The translations under genes and the position numbers were made by a program. Below the pieces are notes generated by a model. It had not been told where the DNA came from, did no database searches, and worked only from the letters and a program-made list of their open reading frames with translations. Positions 58,163 through 60,922 of a DNA stretch of 64,000 bases are shown in pieces. Each line of letters begins with the position of its first letter. Position 1 is the first letter of the stretch. This stretch comes from Paludibacteraceae bacterium (GTDB lineage: Bacteria > Bacteroidota > Bacteroidia > Bacteroidales > Paludibacteraceae): assembly GCA_024401535.1 (NCBI GenBank), contig JAKSKX010000013.1, positions 1 to 64,000 of the forward strand, written 5' to 3'.

Positions 58163-58170
58163 GATAAAGG

Positions 58171-58212
58171 AAAGCTGTTTGATATAAAATCAAACAGCTT
58201 TTTATATTTATT
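58171..58212. terminator. Terminator between nth and the nitrilase-fold gene
   Basis: Perfect 13-bp stem AAAGCTGTTTGAT (58171-58183) with ATCAAACAGCTTT (58189-58201), loop ATAAA, then TTATATTTATTT. The genes converge, so it may serve both strands. Confidence 0.8.
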
Positions 58213-59557
58213 TCTCAGTATCATTCATATGAGAAGCCAAGTCATAGCAAATATCAATAAGGGTCTCGTATCCTTCTCGCCAACTAGCTCTTATTCCATT
58301 CTTGTTTTGCCAGATAGCTTCAGGACCAGTAGTACGACTCAAATCTATACCGAACTTTCCGTCAACCTCTTTAACAACCTGTGACTTTCGATTCTTACTT
58401 GTCTGGTAACACCTATTTGCAATTGGTGATTCAAGTATAACAGCACAGAAATTCTCCATAGCACGAACTCTTAAAAGAGAATCTAATTGAGAATCTAAAA
58501 GTTTTTTATCAAGATTCTCCCATCGGTTTACTATAATGTATTTCTTGTTCTTTAAGTCCTTAAGAACATCTACATACAATTTACTACATACAAACTCAGG
58601 AACCATAATAGTCTCATCATCGCAAATAACAAATATAATATTGTCATTGCCTTGCTTTAGTATGTATAGAAATTCAGTTAGTTTTTCAGCTTTTTCAATA
58701 AGTTTTGATACTTCGCCTACTTCAACTGAGATGTCTTGATATTTGTTCTCTGACGGTTCACTTGGTTCGAGAGGTGGCAACACTGTGTAATTCTCTGTGT
58801 CAAATACATAAACTGAATCCAATAAATTCAAAGCCTTAGTCGAAGGATTCATTAGATTTGAGAATGACATATGAGCTCCAGTCGAATCGAAACCATAAAC
58901 ATAGGAATTTTCGTTATTGCTTGCATCATATCCCATTGTTACAAGTGAGAAGCACTCGTTTTCGATTGCTCTAACCTGGTTGTAGCGATACCACTTATGA
59001 TAGTCTACATTACCTCCTGTCATATTGATTAGAATATCGATTCCCTGAACTCCATACAAGGCGCTGAAAATTGGGTGATTGCAGTCATAACAGATTGTCA
59101 TGCCAATCTTTTGACCTTTCAGTACAATGGGAGCGAATTGATTCCAAGCATTGAAAATAGACTCTTTATAATCTTCAAATGACAAAGGAGAAAATCCAGT
59201 CTTTGTATTCTTGAAATACACCCTTGCAATTGTCTCATCATCCTTTGCATTGGGATTTGTATAATAAGCGAAAATAAAATCTTCTCCATTATCATCCCCT
59301 TCAACAAAGACAGCCTGCGAAGACGAAAAAATAACAGGCTTGCCAATTTTCTTGGCATATTCATCTGCCGCCTTATACCACGCATGTGCAGAATCCATAA
59401 AAACTAAATCTCCATTAAGCAGATCGTTAAATGGAATATATGCATATTCTGGAAGTACAACCAAATCAACATCGGATTTTTTCACGATGTCCATCACCTC
59501 ATTGAACCTCTCCTCCGTGTCATTTCGGTGATCTTGCAACCAAAGTCCTATCTTCAT
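58208..59557 (-). CDS. Nitrilase-superfamily (carbon-nitrogen hydrolase fold) protein with an extra C-terminal domain
   Basis: A 449-residue protein. Residues about 1-260 follow the nitrilase fold with the Glu-Lys-Cys triad: Glu37 in VLPEYAY, Lys116 or Lys119 in YFKNTKTGF, and Cys156 in MTICYDCNHP. Residues about 265-449 are a region I do not recognise, helical and then alpha/beta (NIIFVICDDETIMVPEF ... KYIIVNRWENLDKKLLD). The substrate (amide, nitrile or an acyl-N group) cannot be told. It is third and last in a tight operon with the small FAPSRF protein (12 bp upstream) and the nuclease-like gene. Base composition is visibly more A/T-rich than in the his and sus genes, which suggests transfer. 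A cytoplasmic location is likely (no signal). Confidence 0.75.
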   Translation of the reverse strand: MKIGLWLQDHRNDTEERFNEVMDIVKKSDVDLVVLPEYAYIPFNDLLNGDLVFMDSAHAWYKAADEYAKKIGKPVIFSSSQAVFVEGDDNGEDFIFAYYTNPNAKDDETIARVYFKNTKTGFSPLSFEDYKESIFNAWNQFAPIVLKGQKIGMTICYDCNHPIFSALYGVQGIDILINMTGGNVDYHKWYRYNQVRAIENECFSLVTMGYDASNNENSYVYGFDSTGAHMSFSNLMNPSTKALNLLDSVYVFDTENYTVLPPLEPSEPSENKYQDISVEVGEVSKLIEKAEKLTEFLYILKQGNDNIIFVICDDETIMVPEFVCSKLYVDVLKDLKNKKYIIVNRWENLDKKLLDSQLDSLLRVRAMENFCAVILESPIANRCYQTSKNRKSQVVKEVDGKFGIDLSRTTGPEAIWQNKNGIRASWREGYETLIDICYDLASHMNDTEK

Positions 59558-59569
59558 ATAAATCTAAAA

Positions 59570-59986
59570 TTAAAACATTCTCCAGTACTTCCTCTTAGCA
59601 CCAAATGCGCCCTTTGCTTTTGGTGTGATAAAAAGCTTATTGCAATACTTAATATATGCAGTTTCTATTTCTGCATCCTCAATAGGAGCAAATCCTAAAA
59701 CTCTGTTAATTACTTCATTAGTGTCTCTGCCATCTTTGTAATCATTGCTCTCATGCTTTTCCATAGAGTTCTCAGCATAACCGACAAATCGACTTGGCGC
59801 AAATCTAATCTCGTTATCTACTTTGTAGGCAATGAAGCAAGTGCCGTTCTTAATAAGGTTGGCAGCAAAAAATTGCTTGTCCTTGTATCCATAGGGATTC
59901 AAGTAAGCCTCTATTGTCTCAATGTTTTTCTGAATATCCTCTTGGGATTTCACAAATTCGTTTTCAATGTATTCCATATTGTTCAA
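59570..59986 (-). CDS. Small protein with a FAPSRFxGY motif, possible DNA-recognition or restriction-associated domain
   Basis: A 138-residue soluble protein. It starts with a helical segment (about 5-28), then KDKQFFAANLIKNGTCFIAYKVDNEIRFAPSRFVGYAENSMEKH (about 36-80), GRDTNEVINRVLG (about 86-98) and a basic end KAKGAFGAKRKYW. I recall similar sequences beside HNH or restriction-type nucleases, but I cannot name the family with certainty. It lies 10 bp after the nuclease-like gene and 12 bp before the nitrilase-fold gene, so all three are one operon. The basic C-terminus fits nucleic acid binding (inferred). Confidence 0.65.
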   Translation of the reverse strand: MNNMEYIENEFVKSQEDIQKNIETIEAYLNPYGYKDKQFFAANLIKNGTCFIAYKVDNEIRFAPSRFVGYAENSMEKHESNDYKDGRDTNEVINRVLGFAPIEDAEIETAYIKYCNKLFITPKAKGAFGAKRKYWRMF

Positions 59987-59996
59987 GTTTATTCAA

Positions 59997-60560
59997 TTAT
60001 AAATCAAGTAATTTAATAAGCTCATTATAAGCATAGTCCTTCGTAAAGTCAATCTGTCCATGCATAATCCTGACAAGCTTGTAACCATTCCTATAGGCTT
60101 GGATATCTCTTGTACTATCAAAAAATGCTCTCCCTTCATCTCTATACACAGGGTCTTTATCTCGAGCTTTTATGTCTCTGCAAGCCTTAATCCATAAGTT
60201 TCTGTCATAATTTAAGGGTATATCTCTATAGGCTTCAAGTGAGATTGCTCTTGCTTCTGAGAAATGCTGACGTTCATCATATTCTATTATTGTTTTTTGA
60301 CTCTCGCAAACAAAATCACATCTTAACTTGTAATTGACCCTAGCAAATTTGGGGTCTGCATTTCTGTATTGCGACAATGCTTGAAATACACGGCAGAATA
60401 AATCATCCATTTCGTATGGGGCTTGCATCCATGGAAATGTCATTTCACTTACTATGTCACAGTCGTAGATTTTATTTAAAAATCTCTGCAAATAATTCTT
60501 TTGTTCTAGAACTTCCTTTTGAGGAATAGAAATAGTTTTATTAAAATCAATAATTTTCAC
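59997..60560 (-). CDS. PD-(D/E)XK/Vsr-like nuclease candidate
   Basis: A 187-residue soluble protein. The core LRCDFVCESQKTIIEYDERQHF (residues 79-100, split here as CDF and IIEYDERQH) matches the D-x(10)-E-x-(D/E)-x-x-Q-H pattern of Vsr/DUF559-like members of the PD-(D/E)XK nuclease fold, with Asp82, Glu93, Asp95 and Gln98 as likely active-site residues. The C-terminal GYKLVRIMHGQIDF strand is also typical (tail valine-arginine-isoleucine before the last helix). It is first in the three-gene operon; its ATG is about 30 bases downstream of the terminator of the structured RNA. Whether it cuts DNA or RNA is unknown. Confidence 0.68.
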   Translation of the reverse strand: MKIIDFNKTISIPQKEVLEQKNYLQRFLNKIYDCDIVSEMTFPWMQAPYEMDDLFCRVFQALSQYRNADPKFARVNYKLRCDFVCESQKTIIEYDERQHFSEARAISLEAYRDIPLNYDRNLWIKACRDIKARDKDPVYRDEGRAFFDSTRDIQAYRNGYKLVRIMHGQIDFTKDYAYNELIKLLDL

Positions 60561-60592
60561 TTTTGTGTATTAATTGTTAAACATCACTACAC

Positions 60593-60630
60593 AAAAAAGC
60601 GTGGAGCAAGTCCTTGTCACTCGTTCCACG
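60593..60630 (-). terminator. Intrinsic terminator ending the structured RNA
   Basis: Minus-strand CGTGGA ... TCCACG stem with possible inner CAAG/CTTG pairs, followed by TTTTTTGTG. It lies about 30 bases before the nuclease-like ATG and shares three bases with the basal helix of the rod. Confidence 0.7.
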
Positions 60631-60908
60631 TTACTTAGGCCTTCGCATTGCCCTATCTGTCGAAACGAGCAACGCTGAAAGCCCCACGCAGTGTATATCA
60701 ACATACTAGTGCAAGAACGATAAGTTACTTGTACTAAGTTACGTTTACACTACACCCAATTGGGGCGTTCCCGTTGCTTTGTTTTTGACAGATAAATATT
60801 GAAGTTGCGAAGTTCAAGTAACGTCAAAACCAAAGCGTAAAGGTACGCCTTTCTATGTATATTATTTATTTCTCACATCCCACCCTAAAGGCTTTCAGCG
60901 AGTAATAG
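60593..60908 (-). ncRNA. Rod-shaped structured RNA / leader upstream of the nuclease operon
   Basis: Seven nested helices read from plus-strand coordinates: 60628-60636/60816-60824 (9 bp), 60641-60647/60806-60812 (7), 60654-60661/60787-60794 (8), 60668-60674/60772-60778 (7), 60681-60686/60761-60766 (6), 60690-60695/60746-60751 (6) and 60707-60715/60728-60736 (9, one G-U on this strand). They form a rod of about 197 nt with a 12-nt apical loop. On the minus strand a -7 element (60922-60915) precedes it. A terminator hairpin CGTGGA/TCCACG (60630-60625, 60605-60600) with six U's ends it. No match to tmRNA, RNase P or SRP RNA was found. A divergent 6S-like RNA cannot be excluded. It may also be the 5' leader of the operon. 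Confidence 0.65.
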
Positions 60909-60914
60909 ATAATG

Positions 60915-60922
60915 CAAAACTA
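60915..60922 (-). promoter_or_regulatory. Probable -7 element of the structured RNA
   Basis: Minus-strand TAGTTTTG matches TAnnTTTG; start expected near 60908. No -33 TTTG at the normal distance. No other promoter is visible between the RNA and the operon. The rest of 60923-61078 holds only A-rich DNA with two copies of AACAAAAATCA. Confidence 0.45.

Follow-up and report, generated by a model that had tools for sequence, protein, structure and literature searches.

A structured promoter–leader RNA with competing folds, a candidate portable attenuator, precedes a nuclease–nitrilase operon and many unrelated genes in Bacteroidales

Introduction

At 58208..60922 of a 64,000-nt stretch of DNA (the window) from a Paludibacteraceae bacterium (GCA_024401535.1, contig JAKSKX010000013.1, positions 1-64,000), a rod-like RNA precedes an operon for a nuclease, a protein bearing a FAPSRF motif and a nitrilase-fold protein, and the locus raises the question of what this RNA does there. 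The original prediction, made from the sequence alone, was that the RNA controls, or is used by, a defence or toxin module of three genes. The operon with a structured leader has been borne out; the idea that the RNA is private to this system has not, since it precedes 56 to 67 cargo families. Because the same cassette recurs before many unrelated acquired genes, we regard the RNA, and not the three genes, as the discovery. In our preferred reading, to which we assign a probability of about 0.64, it would be the start of the messenger RNA (mRNA): a portable promoter plus a two-state attenuator leader that is reused for acquired operons.

The control of defence and other costly acquired operons is poorly known, and the shared regulators found in print are proteins: the WYL repressors BrxR and CapW form one regulatory module common to many unrelated defence systems (PMC9122601, in the portion available). 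The leader resembles them in being a regulatory module shared by unrelated systems; BrxR and CapW are DNA-binding proteins, whereas the leader is a cis RNA with cargo beyond defence. With one leader class over some 60 Bacteroidales gene families, finding its trigger would expose a hidden regulon. Because the cargo is often an acquired, variable operon, the leader could also guide searches for new defence systems in gut bacteria, and the nuclease–nitrilase pair is one candidate that it flags.

The leader RNA of the window

The window leader is rod-like, about 315 nt long, and folds at -124.7 kcal/mol against a shuffle mean of -86.8 (z -8.3; 0 of 100 shuffles as good). Both the -7 element and the terminator that had been predicted for it could be located, and no TAnnTTTG, the Bacteroidetes -7 consensus, occurs between the U-run and the first gene, as expected from the claim that the operon has no other promoter. 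The features of the leader are as follows.

60915..60922, minus strand: -7 promoter element TAGTTTTG (TAnnTTTG), read from the sequence
60593..60907, minus strand: leader RNA from the putative transcription start site to the end of the U-run (fold z -8.3, covariation, homologues)
60890..60900, minus strand: 5' strand of hairpin P0, CGCTGAAAGCC, an 11-bp perfect complement of 60673-60683
60673..60683, minus strand: segment of the rod 3' arm, GGCTTTCAGCG, alternative partner of the leader by complementarity
60817..60824, minus strand: 5' strand of the rod base helix R1, pairing with 60628-60635
60628..60635, minus strand: 3' strand of helix R1; 60628-60630 double as the first bases of hairpin P4
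60823..60835, minus strand: 5' strand of local hairpin 5'H, a competitor of the rod (competing-fold covariation, partition function)
60777..60789, minus strand: 3' strand of 5'H, GTCAAAAACAAAG (competing-fold covariation)
60645..60675, minus strand: local hairpin 3'H, GCGTTGC/GCAATGC, a competitor of the rod (92.3 and 96.4% paired in its two parts)
60600..60630, minus strand: terminator-like hairpin P4 (85.1% paired; double changes in 4 of 8 pairs)
60593..60598, minus strand: U-run of six T, read from the sequence
60563..60594, minus strand: downstream hairpin TTGTGTA/TACACAA, which absorbs the end of the U-run (found by inspection, with no statistical test)

The downstream hairpin is also present in the copies of two other genomes (G019 and G048) that lie before the same nuclease. 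In the window it occupies the place where other copies carry an element that pairs with the 3' arm of P4.

In Rfam 15 the window leader exceeded no gathering score, and at E values up to 10 it gave only low hits far below gathering; the leaders of 17 further loci likewise matched no family over gathering. One locus (L029) has a sub-threshold microRNA match (31.7 bits, gathering 90) upstream of the model match. These searches support the conclusion that the leader is neither 6S nor another Rfam family. A 6S-type RNA located there by chance, a doubt that the original prediction had itself raised, would share the long rod; there is no Rfam 6S match, and this explanation is contradicted because the source genome holds 5 copies and other genomes up to 15 (among the matches listed), nearly always before a gene. 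We give it next to no credence.

Distribution, position and cargo

BLAST found the RNA in 51 of 150 sampled genomes of the family, and covariance model R1, which covers the 3' 96 positions of the RNA, found it in 73 of the 150 (among the matches listed, as are the copy numbers given here). The genomes richest in copies hold 15 (G083), 14 (G137) and 13 (G044). In the order-level sample the RNA is present in 16 of 198 genomes, 13 of them from other families, and in the phylum sample only in the window's own genome (1 of 296). An exact pattern recovered 16 stretches, mostly from metagenome-assembled records, assigned to Paraprevotella, Phocaeicola, Parabacteroides, Bacteroidaceae, Muribaculaceae, Paludibacteraceae, Porphyromonadaceae and Prevotellaceae. 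Searching phage and plasmid collections with blastn gave no match to the RNA, and a scan of viral contigs was negative with one strict pattern, which remote viral copies could escape. The model search of 119 sources gave 125 matches, from which 9 weak opposite-strand ones were removed, and the remaining 116 copies were read.

The copies occupy a consistent position. The downstream open reading frame (ORF) of at least 70 aa is on the strand of the RNA in 109 of 114 copies (90 of 92 within 250 nt), and the upstream gene is so in 76 of 111. With near-duplicates removed the corresponding counts are 104 of 109, 85 of 87 and 73 of 106, with a median RNA-to-gene distance of 74.5 nt. Held-out copies, which come from other families and lie outside the model (n = 15), agree, with 13 of 15 on the same strand and 11 of 12 within 250 nt. 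TAnnTTTG lies within 190 nt upstream of the 3' part of the rod in 106 of 114 copies, compared with 13 of 114 sequences shuffled once each, a T5 stretch follows P4 in 105 of 116, and the promoter pattern recurs between U-run and gene in only 5 of 98. The order is that of an attenuator leader: promoter, leader, intrinsic terminator, then the gene without a second promoter; it is weaker in the held-out copies.

What follows the leader varies widely. Clustering up to three same-strand ORFs per copy gave 56 cargo families when cargo up to 1200 nt away was counted (106 copies) and 64 with a limit of 500 nt (98 copies); by the first gene alone there are 67 among 98. Restriction genes, helicases, dynamin, surface proteins and sugar transferases are represented, and many cargos do not have the look of defence. 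Among 91 first genes scanned, seven are BspA-type leucine-rich proteins, seven ResIII/helicase proteins and three type III methylation subunits, with single cases of a sugar transferase, a DegT aminotransferase, DUF4007 and Hsp70; models of DISARM, BREX and Zorya helicases in PADLOC match six first genes. Other cargo includes a dynamin protein (Dynamin_N) and, by reading of the sequences, a vWA–phosphatase–kinase set, tubulin-like proteins and peptide-plus-radical-SAM sets. The other four copies of the source genome precede a helix-turn-helix (HTH)-like protein, a secreted-looking protein, a 239-aa protein and a 136-aa protein (359 nt off), for none of which is a defence role obvious. Upstream genes (n = 101) include no helicase among the 25 Pfam families shown, AAA_14 and TPR leading. 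Upstream genes matched 96 PADLOC families, with PDC-S01 in six genes, against 135 families for the first genes; because upstream genes match PADLOC too, these counts alone do not prove enrichment. The PADLOC and Pfam cargo tallies show 25 families each, not their members, and no defence percentage was derived. First genes have a guanine-plus-cytosine (GC) content of 0.383 against 0.434 for the upstream gene; in 69 of 92 pairs the first gene is the poorer in GC (p 1.3e-8).

This breadth bears on whether the RNA could act in trans, as a small RNA or as an antitoxin or guide of the nuclease–nitrilase module, in the manner of type III toxin–antitoxin systems, abiF or retrons. Such a role would suit a separate RNA that ends in a terminator of its own ahead of a nuclease gene, which recalls abiF RNA (PMC12373285, in the part available). 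The same RNA, however, precedes 56 to 67 unrelated cargo families, the same nuclease pair has a different RNA in G004 and G081, and the leader has no Rfam match to abiF or ToxI. The type III toxin–antitoxin version was rejected on the number of cargo families and on the lack of tandem repeats in the window copy. The retron version was rejected as well: no reverse transcriptase lies beside the RNA in nine RNA-bearing genomes, four of which have no reverse transcriptase match, while in the other five none is within 45 kb of the copies (among the matches listed). We consider a trans-acting role highly unlikely.

Structured RNAs with a premature terminator are also known before individual abortive-infection genes, in the abiD1 5' untranslated region and in abiF/RCd22 (PMC12373285, in the part available). 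They serve one cargo family each, and abiF belongs to a separate Rfam family, RF03085.

Promoter and leader as a moving unit

RNAs before unrelated genes can be close relatives: those of G019, before a nuclease, and G068, before a helicase, are 92% identical over the aligned part. In eight pairs of loci with unrelated cargo (blastn identity 83-94%), homology opens 239-365 nt (once 546) ahead of the end of the model match and stops 4-14 nt past it in six pairs and 42-49 nt past it in two; one of the eight includes a locus whose first gene lies 891 nt off. In two control pairs with the same cargo, homology continues to +2.2 and +6.4 kb. Because homology stops sharply near the terminator when the cargo is unrelated, the moving unit is the promoter plus the leader. 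Mean RNA identity is 0.666 for the same cargo in different genomes, and 0.645 within one genome and 0.616 between genomes for different cargo, values that rest on over-split families. Just ahead of their main copies, two loci (L048 and L143) show extra partial leader matches (L048 -628 to -499 with L143 -499 to -370), as though the cassette had undergone partial duplication.

That copies with unrelated cargo lose homology abruptly close to the U-run would also be expected of a structured DNA site, integron attC-like or another recombination site, at which cargo is swapped and the RNA fold is incidental. The imperfect palindrome, the diverse accessory genes and the presence of two copies at two of the loci read (L122 and L197) are in keeping with it. 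Against it, G-U pairs are retained (13 of 62 copies at one rod pair and 56 of 62 at one pair of 3'H), a promoter pattern stands before nearly every copy and a gene after it, and the copies are mostly dispersed and single. A DNA site is, in our judgement, very unlikely.

Two competing folds

Mutual information across 110 copies (weighted 99) ranks the long-range rod at the top. In 62 copies the 29 rod pairs have 92.9% of cells paired, 26 of them with double changes, and the covariation score is 0.517, compared with 0.187 for shuffled and 0.054-0.112 for slid alignments. In helix R1, 8 of 8 pairs have changed on both sides, with 93.7% of cells paired. The competing fold, which consists of 5'H with an inner hairpin, 3'H and P4, is paired in 87.9% of cells, with double changes in 18 of 32 pairs and a score of 0.252 against 0.175 shuffled. 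Covariation therefore backs the rod strongly and the competing local hairpins less strongly. The two folds exclude one another, as expected of an attenuator, the competing one containing the terminator: the base of the rod and the base of P4 share three columns, at which the evidence is weak.

Comparison of each copy's own segments with permuted ones (110 copies) adds further pairings: z is 15.3 for P0, 10.4 for the leader with the rod 3' arm and 9.6 for the downstream element with the 3' arm of P4, while eight other segment pairs range from -2.6 to 1.9. By partition function, the base of the rod has a probability above 0.5 in 90% of 109 full-length copies and that of P4 in 7% of 110; for a transcript truncated ahead of the 3' arm, 5'H pairs with a probability above 0.5 in 67% of 109 copies, and at full length in 1%. 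These values are predictions that omit kinetics and pseudoknots.

Read together with the conserved position, the promoter and terminator patterns and the modularity seen by comparison, the pairings suggest the following sequence of events. Transcription would begin at the TAnnTTTG promoter, and the 5' half of the RNA would fold locally into P0, P2 and 5'H. In the OFF state the 3' half would also fold locally, into 3'H and P4, and P4 with the U-run would terminate transcription before the gene. We infer that the rod is the ON state: in response to a signal the two halves would zip together, the rod base would take the first three nucleotides of P4, and the terminator, now short and spaced from the U-run, would permit read-through. 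A second toggle may be provided by the P0 strand of the leader, which could invade the rod 3' arm. Many read-through mRNAs also carry, close to the start codon, an element that could hold the 3' arm of P4; in the window its place is taken by a different hairpin. The module would move apart from its cargo and be reused for acquired AT-rich operons, the nuclease–nitrilase operon among them.

Several points weigh against this reading. The copies read are not a random sample, because they are mainly the better-scoring ones among the matches listed. In 19 of 109 copies the same-strand gene is more than 250 nt away, 5 of 114 genes face the other way, and only 11 of 15 held-out copies have the promoter pattern and 10 of 15 the T5 stretch. 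Pair counts lean towards the chosen structure, because the helices were picked from covariation in overlapping copies, and 3'H has no double changes, so that pairing alone backs it. At the shared nucleotides triple covariation is weak: GCG occurs in 3 of 62 copies at one triple, and the rod pair is kept while the P4 pair is lost in 5 and 6 copies at two triples, the reverse being seen in 4 at the first. A role of the leader as a direct antiterminator against the 5' arm of P4, which had been expected, was rejected as unsupported (z -2.0). Because the predicted equilibrium favours the rod nearly everywhere, the switch would need kinetic control or a factor, and we identified none. The resemblance of the cargo to the regulons of RfaH, LoaP and UpxY, with surface polysaccharide, long surface proteins and peptides, could also fit another reading.

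That resemblance would suit a processive antitermination RNA, of which put and EAR are known examples, in which the rod would modify the polymerase, letting it pass P4 as well as later terminators of long AT-rich acquired operons. It is further favoured by very long cargo ORFs (up to 2226 aa), by the terminator directly behind the rod and by conserved nucleotides in both rod arms. Like such RNAs and the NusG-paralogue regulons (put, EAR, LoaP, UpxY, RfaH/ops), the element is a leader of acquired operons; unlike them, it has no Rfam match, requires no paralogue and carries its terminator inside a competing fold. A regulon of a NusG paralogue (UpxY, LoaP or RfaH) was rejected, the three genomes with most copies (G083, G137 and G044) having one NusG match each, so that no specialised NusG is needed. 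LoaP itself binds an RNA hairpin (dfn) in a leader (PMC12691694, in the part available). Many cargos, however, are short genes, and attenuation fits better because the terminator hairpin belongs to the competing fold. We regard processive antitermination as unlikely.

The preferred attenuator reading places the RNA beside known attenuators and riboswitch leaders, with which it shares a 5' leader, a terminator hairpin with a U-run and a competing fold that uses terminator bases. Those leaders serve one pathway, whereas here promoter and leader travel together before some 60 cargo families, without a known ligand and with no leader peptide noticed. Attenuator leaders are known as a kind; what appears new relative to the libraries and literature searched is this class, together with its wide range and its movement as a promoter–leader cassette. 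Among open papers (preprints and supplementary files were outside the scope) none was recognised on this leader. A fragment of it could sit among the unnamed candidates in the available part of PMC8040213, for instance as HMP2_1881, a 108-bp element of Bacteroidetes that lies near radical SAM genes.

Further rod leaders

The nuclease pairs of G004 and G081 have no class-1 RNA, by which we mean the family described above; the best model hit has an E value of 0.42 (L182). At L182 4785-5025 there is instead a second rod (z -6.1), present at L183 too, which shares with class 1 its tail, a hairpin followed by CACGCTTTTTTTATG, and is otherwise unrelated to it in sequence. This second class has no Rfam match, is multi-copy and occurs in 40 of 150 sampled family genomes, including the source genome. 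Among 32 loci, 29 have a downstream ORF, 27 on the same strand and 17 of these within 250 nt. In its fold, derived from one of the compared sequences, 138 cells show double changes; the maximum was 87 in 200 shuffles and 80 when slid. In G003 (L184:5515-5735, minus strand) a third, weaker rod (z -3.9) lies before the nuclease and ends in CCACGCT, without a U-run. A rod thus precedes 6 of 6 nuclease–nitrilase operons, class 1 in three, class 2 in two and the unclassified one in one.

Second-class cargo includes restriction-type, small HTH-like and uncharacterised genes. Both classes have small HTH-like proteins of about 70-80 aa, with HIG near the N-terminus, as first cargo, at these loci.

L182:5006-5218, L183 from 4903, L220, L223, L238, L243 and L245: HTH-like cargo of the second class
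L034 and L111-L113: HTH-like cargo of class 1

In the second class these genes start within a few nt of the U-run; at L182 and L183 a 71-aa ORF begins at an ATG straight after it. The two such proteins that were scanned match no Pfam family, and from their sequence they are candidate regulators.

A wider view is tentative, and we doubt it more than we favour it: Bacteroidales would possess at least two sequence-unrelated portable RNA gatekeepers, each a promoter–leader cassette with a two-state rod, as a common form of post-initiation control over acquired genes including phage defences. Cargo and leader would be swapped near the U-run, under one shared trigger such as an altered rate of elongation or the action of an RNA-binding protein during phage infection. 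If true, such cassettes would be the equivalent, at the RNA level, of xenogeneic silencing combined with RfaH and, where defence genes are concerned, of BrxR.

The nuclease–nitrilase operon

The operon consists of three packed minus-strand ORFs of 187, 138 and 449 aa, separated by 10 and 12 bp, exactly as first described. The ORF callers of our scripts are simple, and one of them shortened the first gene.

59997..60560, minus strand: nuclease, Vsr/DUF559/DUF7255-like, 187 aa, GTG start (Pfam)
59570..59986, minus strand: FAPSRF-motif protein, accessory, 138 aa (domain in 5 of 150 genomes)
58208..59557, minus strand: nitrilase-fold protein, 449 aa (PF00795 CN_hydrolase, 2.9e-11)

Its AT-richness is confirmed, with a GC content of 0.356 against 0.420 for the window and only 0.3% of 2353-nt windows (step 200) equally low. 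The nuclease and nitrilase-fold identities also hold. The 187-aa protein matches DUF7255 (2.5e-7) and DUF559 (3.4e-4), both over the Pfam cut-off, and its best matches to solved structures by sequence have E values of 0.07 to 0.67, none convincing. Six nuclease sequences have D82, E93, D95, Q98 and H99 unchanged, and six nitrilase sequences E37, K116 and C156, which we take to be the catalytic residues. The nitrilase Pfam match stops at residue 208, so the remainder is an extension; relatives with solved structures, found by sequence, include NAD+ synthetase and Nit proteins.

The three genes were expected to occur together in other genomes, and among the 150 sampled this proved right for two of them. 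The nuclease is patchy (6 of 150); a nitrilase gene follows it in 6 of 6 genomes (a 569-aa protein in G004), and the FAPSRF gene lies between them in 1 of 6, the window. We therefore take the unit to be nuclease plus nitrilase, with the middle gene accessory; a conserved trio was rejected because the middle gene is missing from five of the six operons. FAPSRF domains occur in four other genomes: near a gene pair read as DUF262-like (L185), as the C-terminal region of a 299-aa protein encoded behind an HNH-containing helicase (L039), in a neighbourhood read as restriction-modification (L186) and at L151. A contig search with the middle protein as query gave no match. This 138-aa protein matches no Pfam family; F62-F67 are unchanged in five sequences. 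Its predicted fold is confident (predicted local distance difference test, pLDDT, 85.8; predicted template modelling score, pTM, 0.81), and against PDB it gave no match at E 0.001 or below (best 1.9). The model may represent an undescribed fold, one met repeatedly in the vicinity of restriction-type genes.

Judging from sequence, the nuclease–nitrilase operon is probably a nucleic-acid-targeting defence or conflict module. A defence role for the pair is plausible by association, from its foreign GC content and its patchy presence. PADLOC gave a single weak match among the three proteins, REase_II (E 0.03) to the middle one, and matched neither nuclease nor nitrilase. Conserved active-site-type residues link the two proteins to the Vsr/DUF559/DUF7255 nucleases and the nitrilase superfamily; the two-gene pairing, the C-terminally extended nitrilase and the lack of a PADLOC match set them apart. 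The nuclease had no tblastn match in phage and plasmid collections. The operon is flanked by nth and a Leu/Phe-transferase-like gene; these lie on separate contigs in 6 of 6 congeners showing both, so that no clean empty site is available, and two further congeners have no match to the Leu/Phe-transferase-like gene.

Other observations

Between nth (plus strand) and the nitrilase gene (minus strand), a palindrome followed by T-runs at 58163-58207 is probably a bidirectional terminator. In G019, at L005:2573-2609 and so close to the leader copy of that genome, there is an Rfam abiF RNA (RF03085, 45 bits, over gathering), with an Abi_2-like gene read nearby, and L032:1940-1985, in a Bacteroidales genome, carries an Acido-Lenti-1 RNA over gathering.

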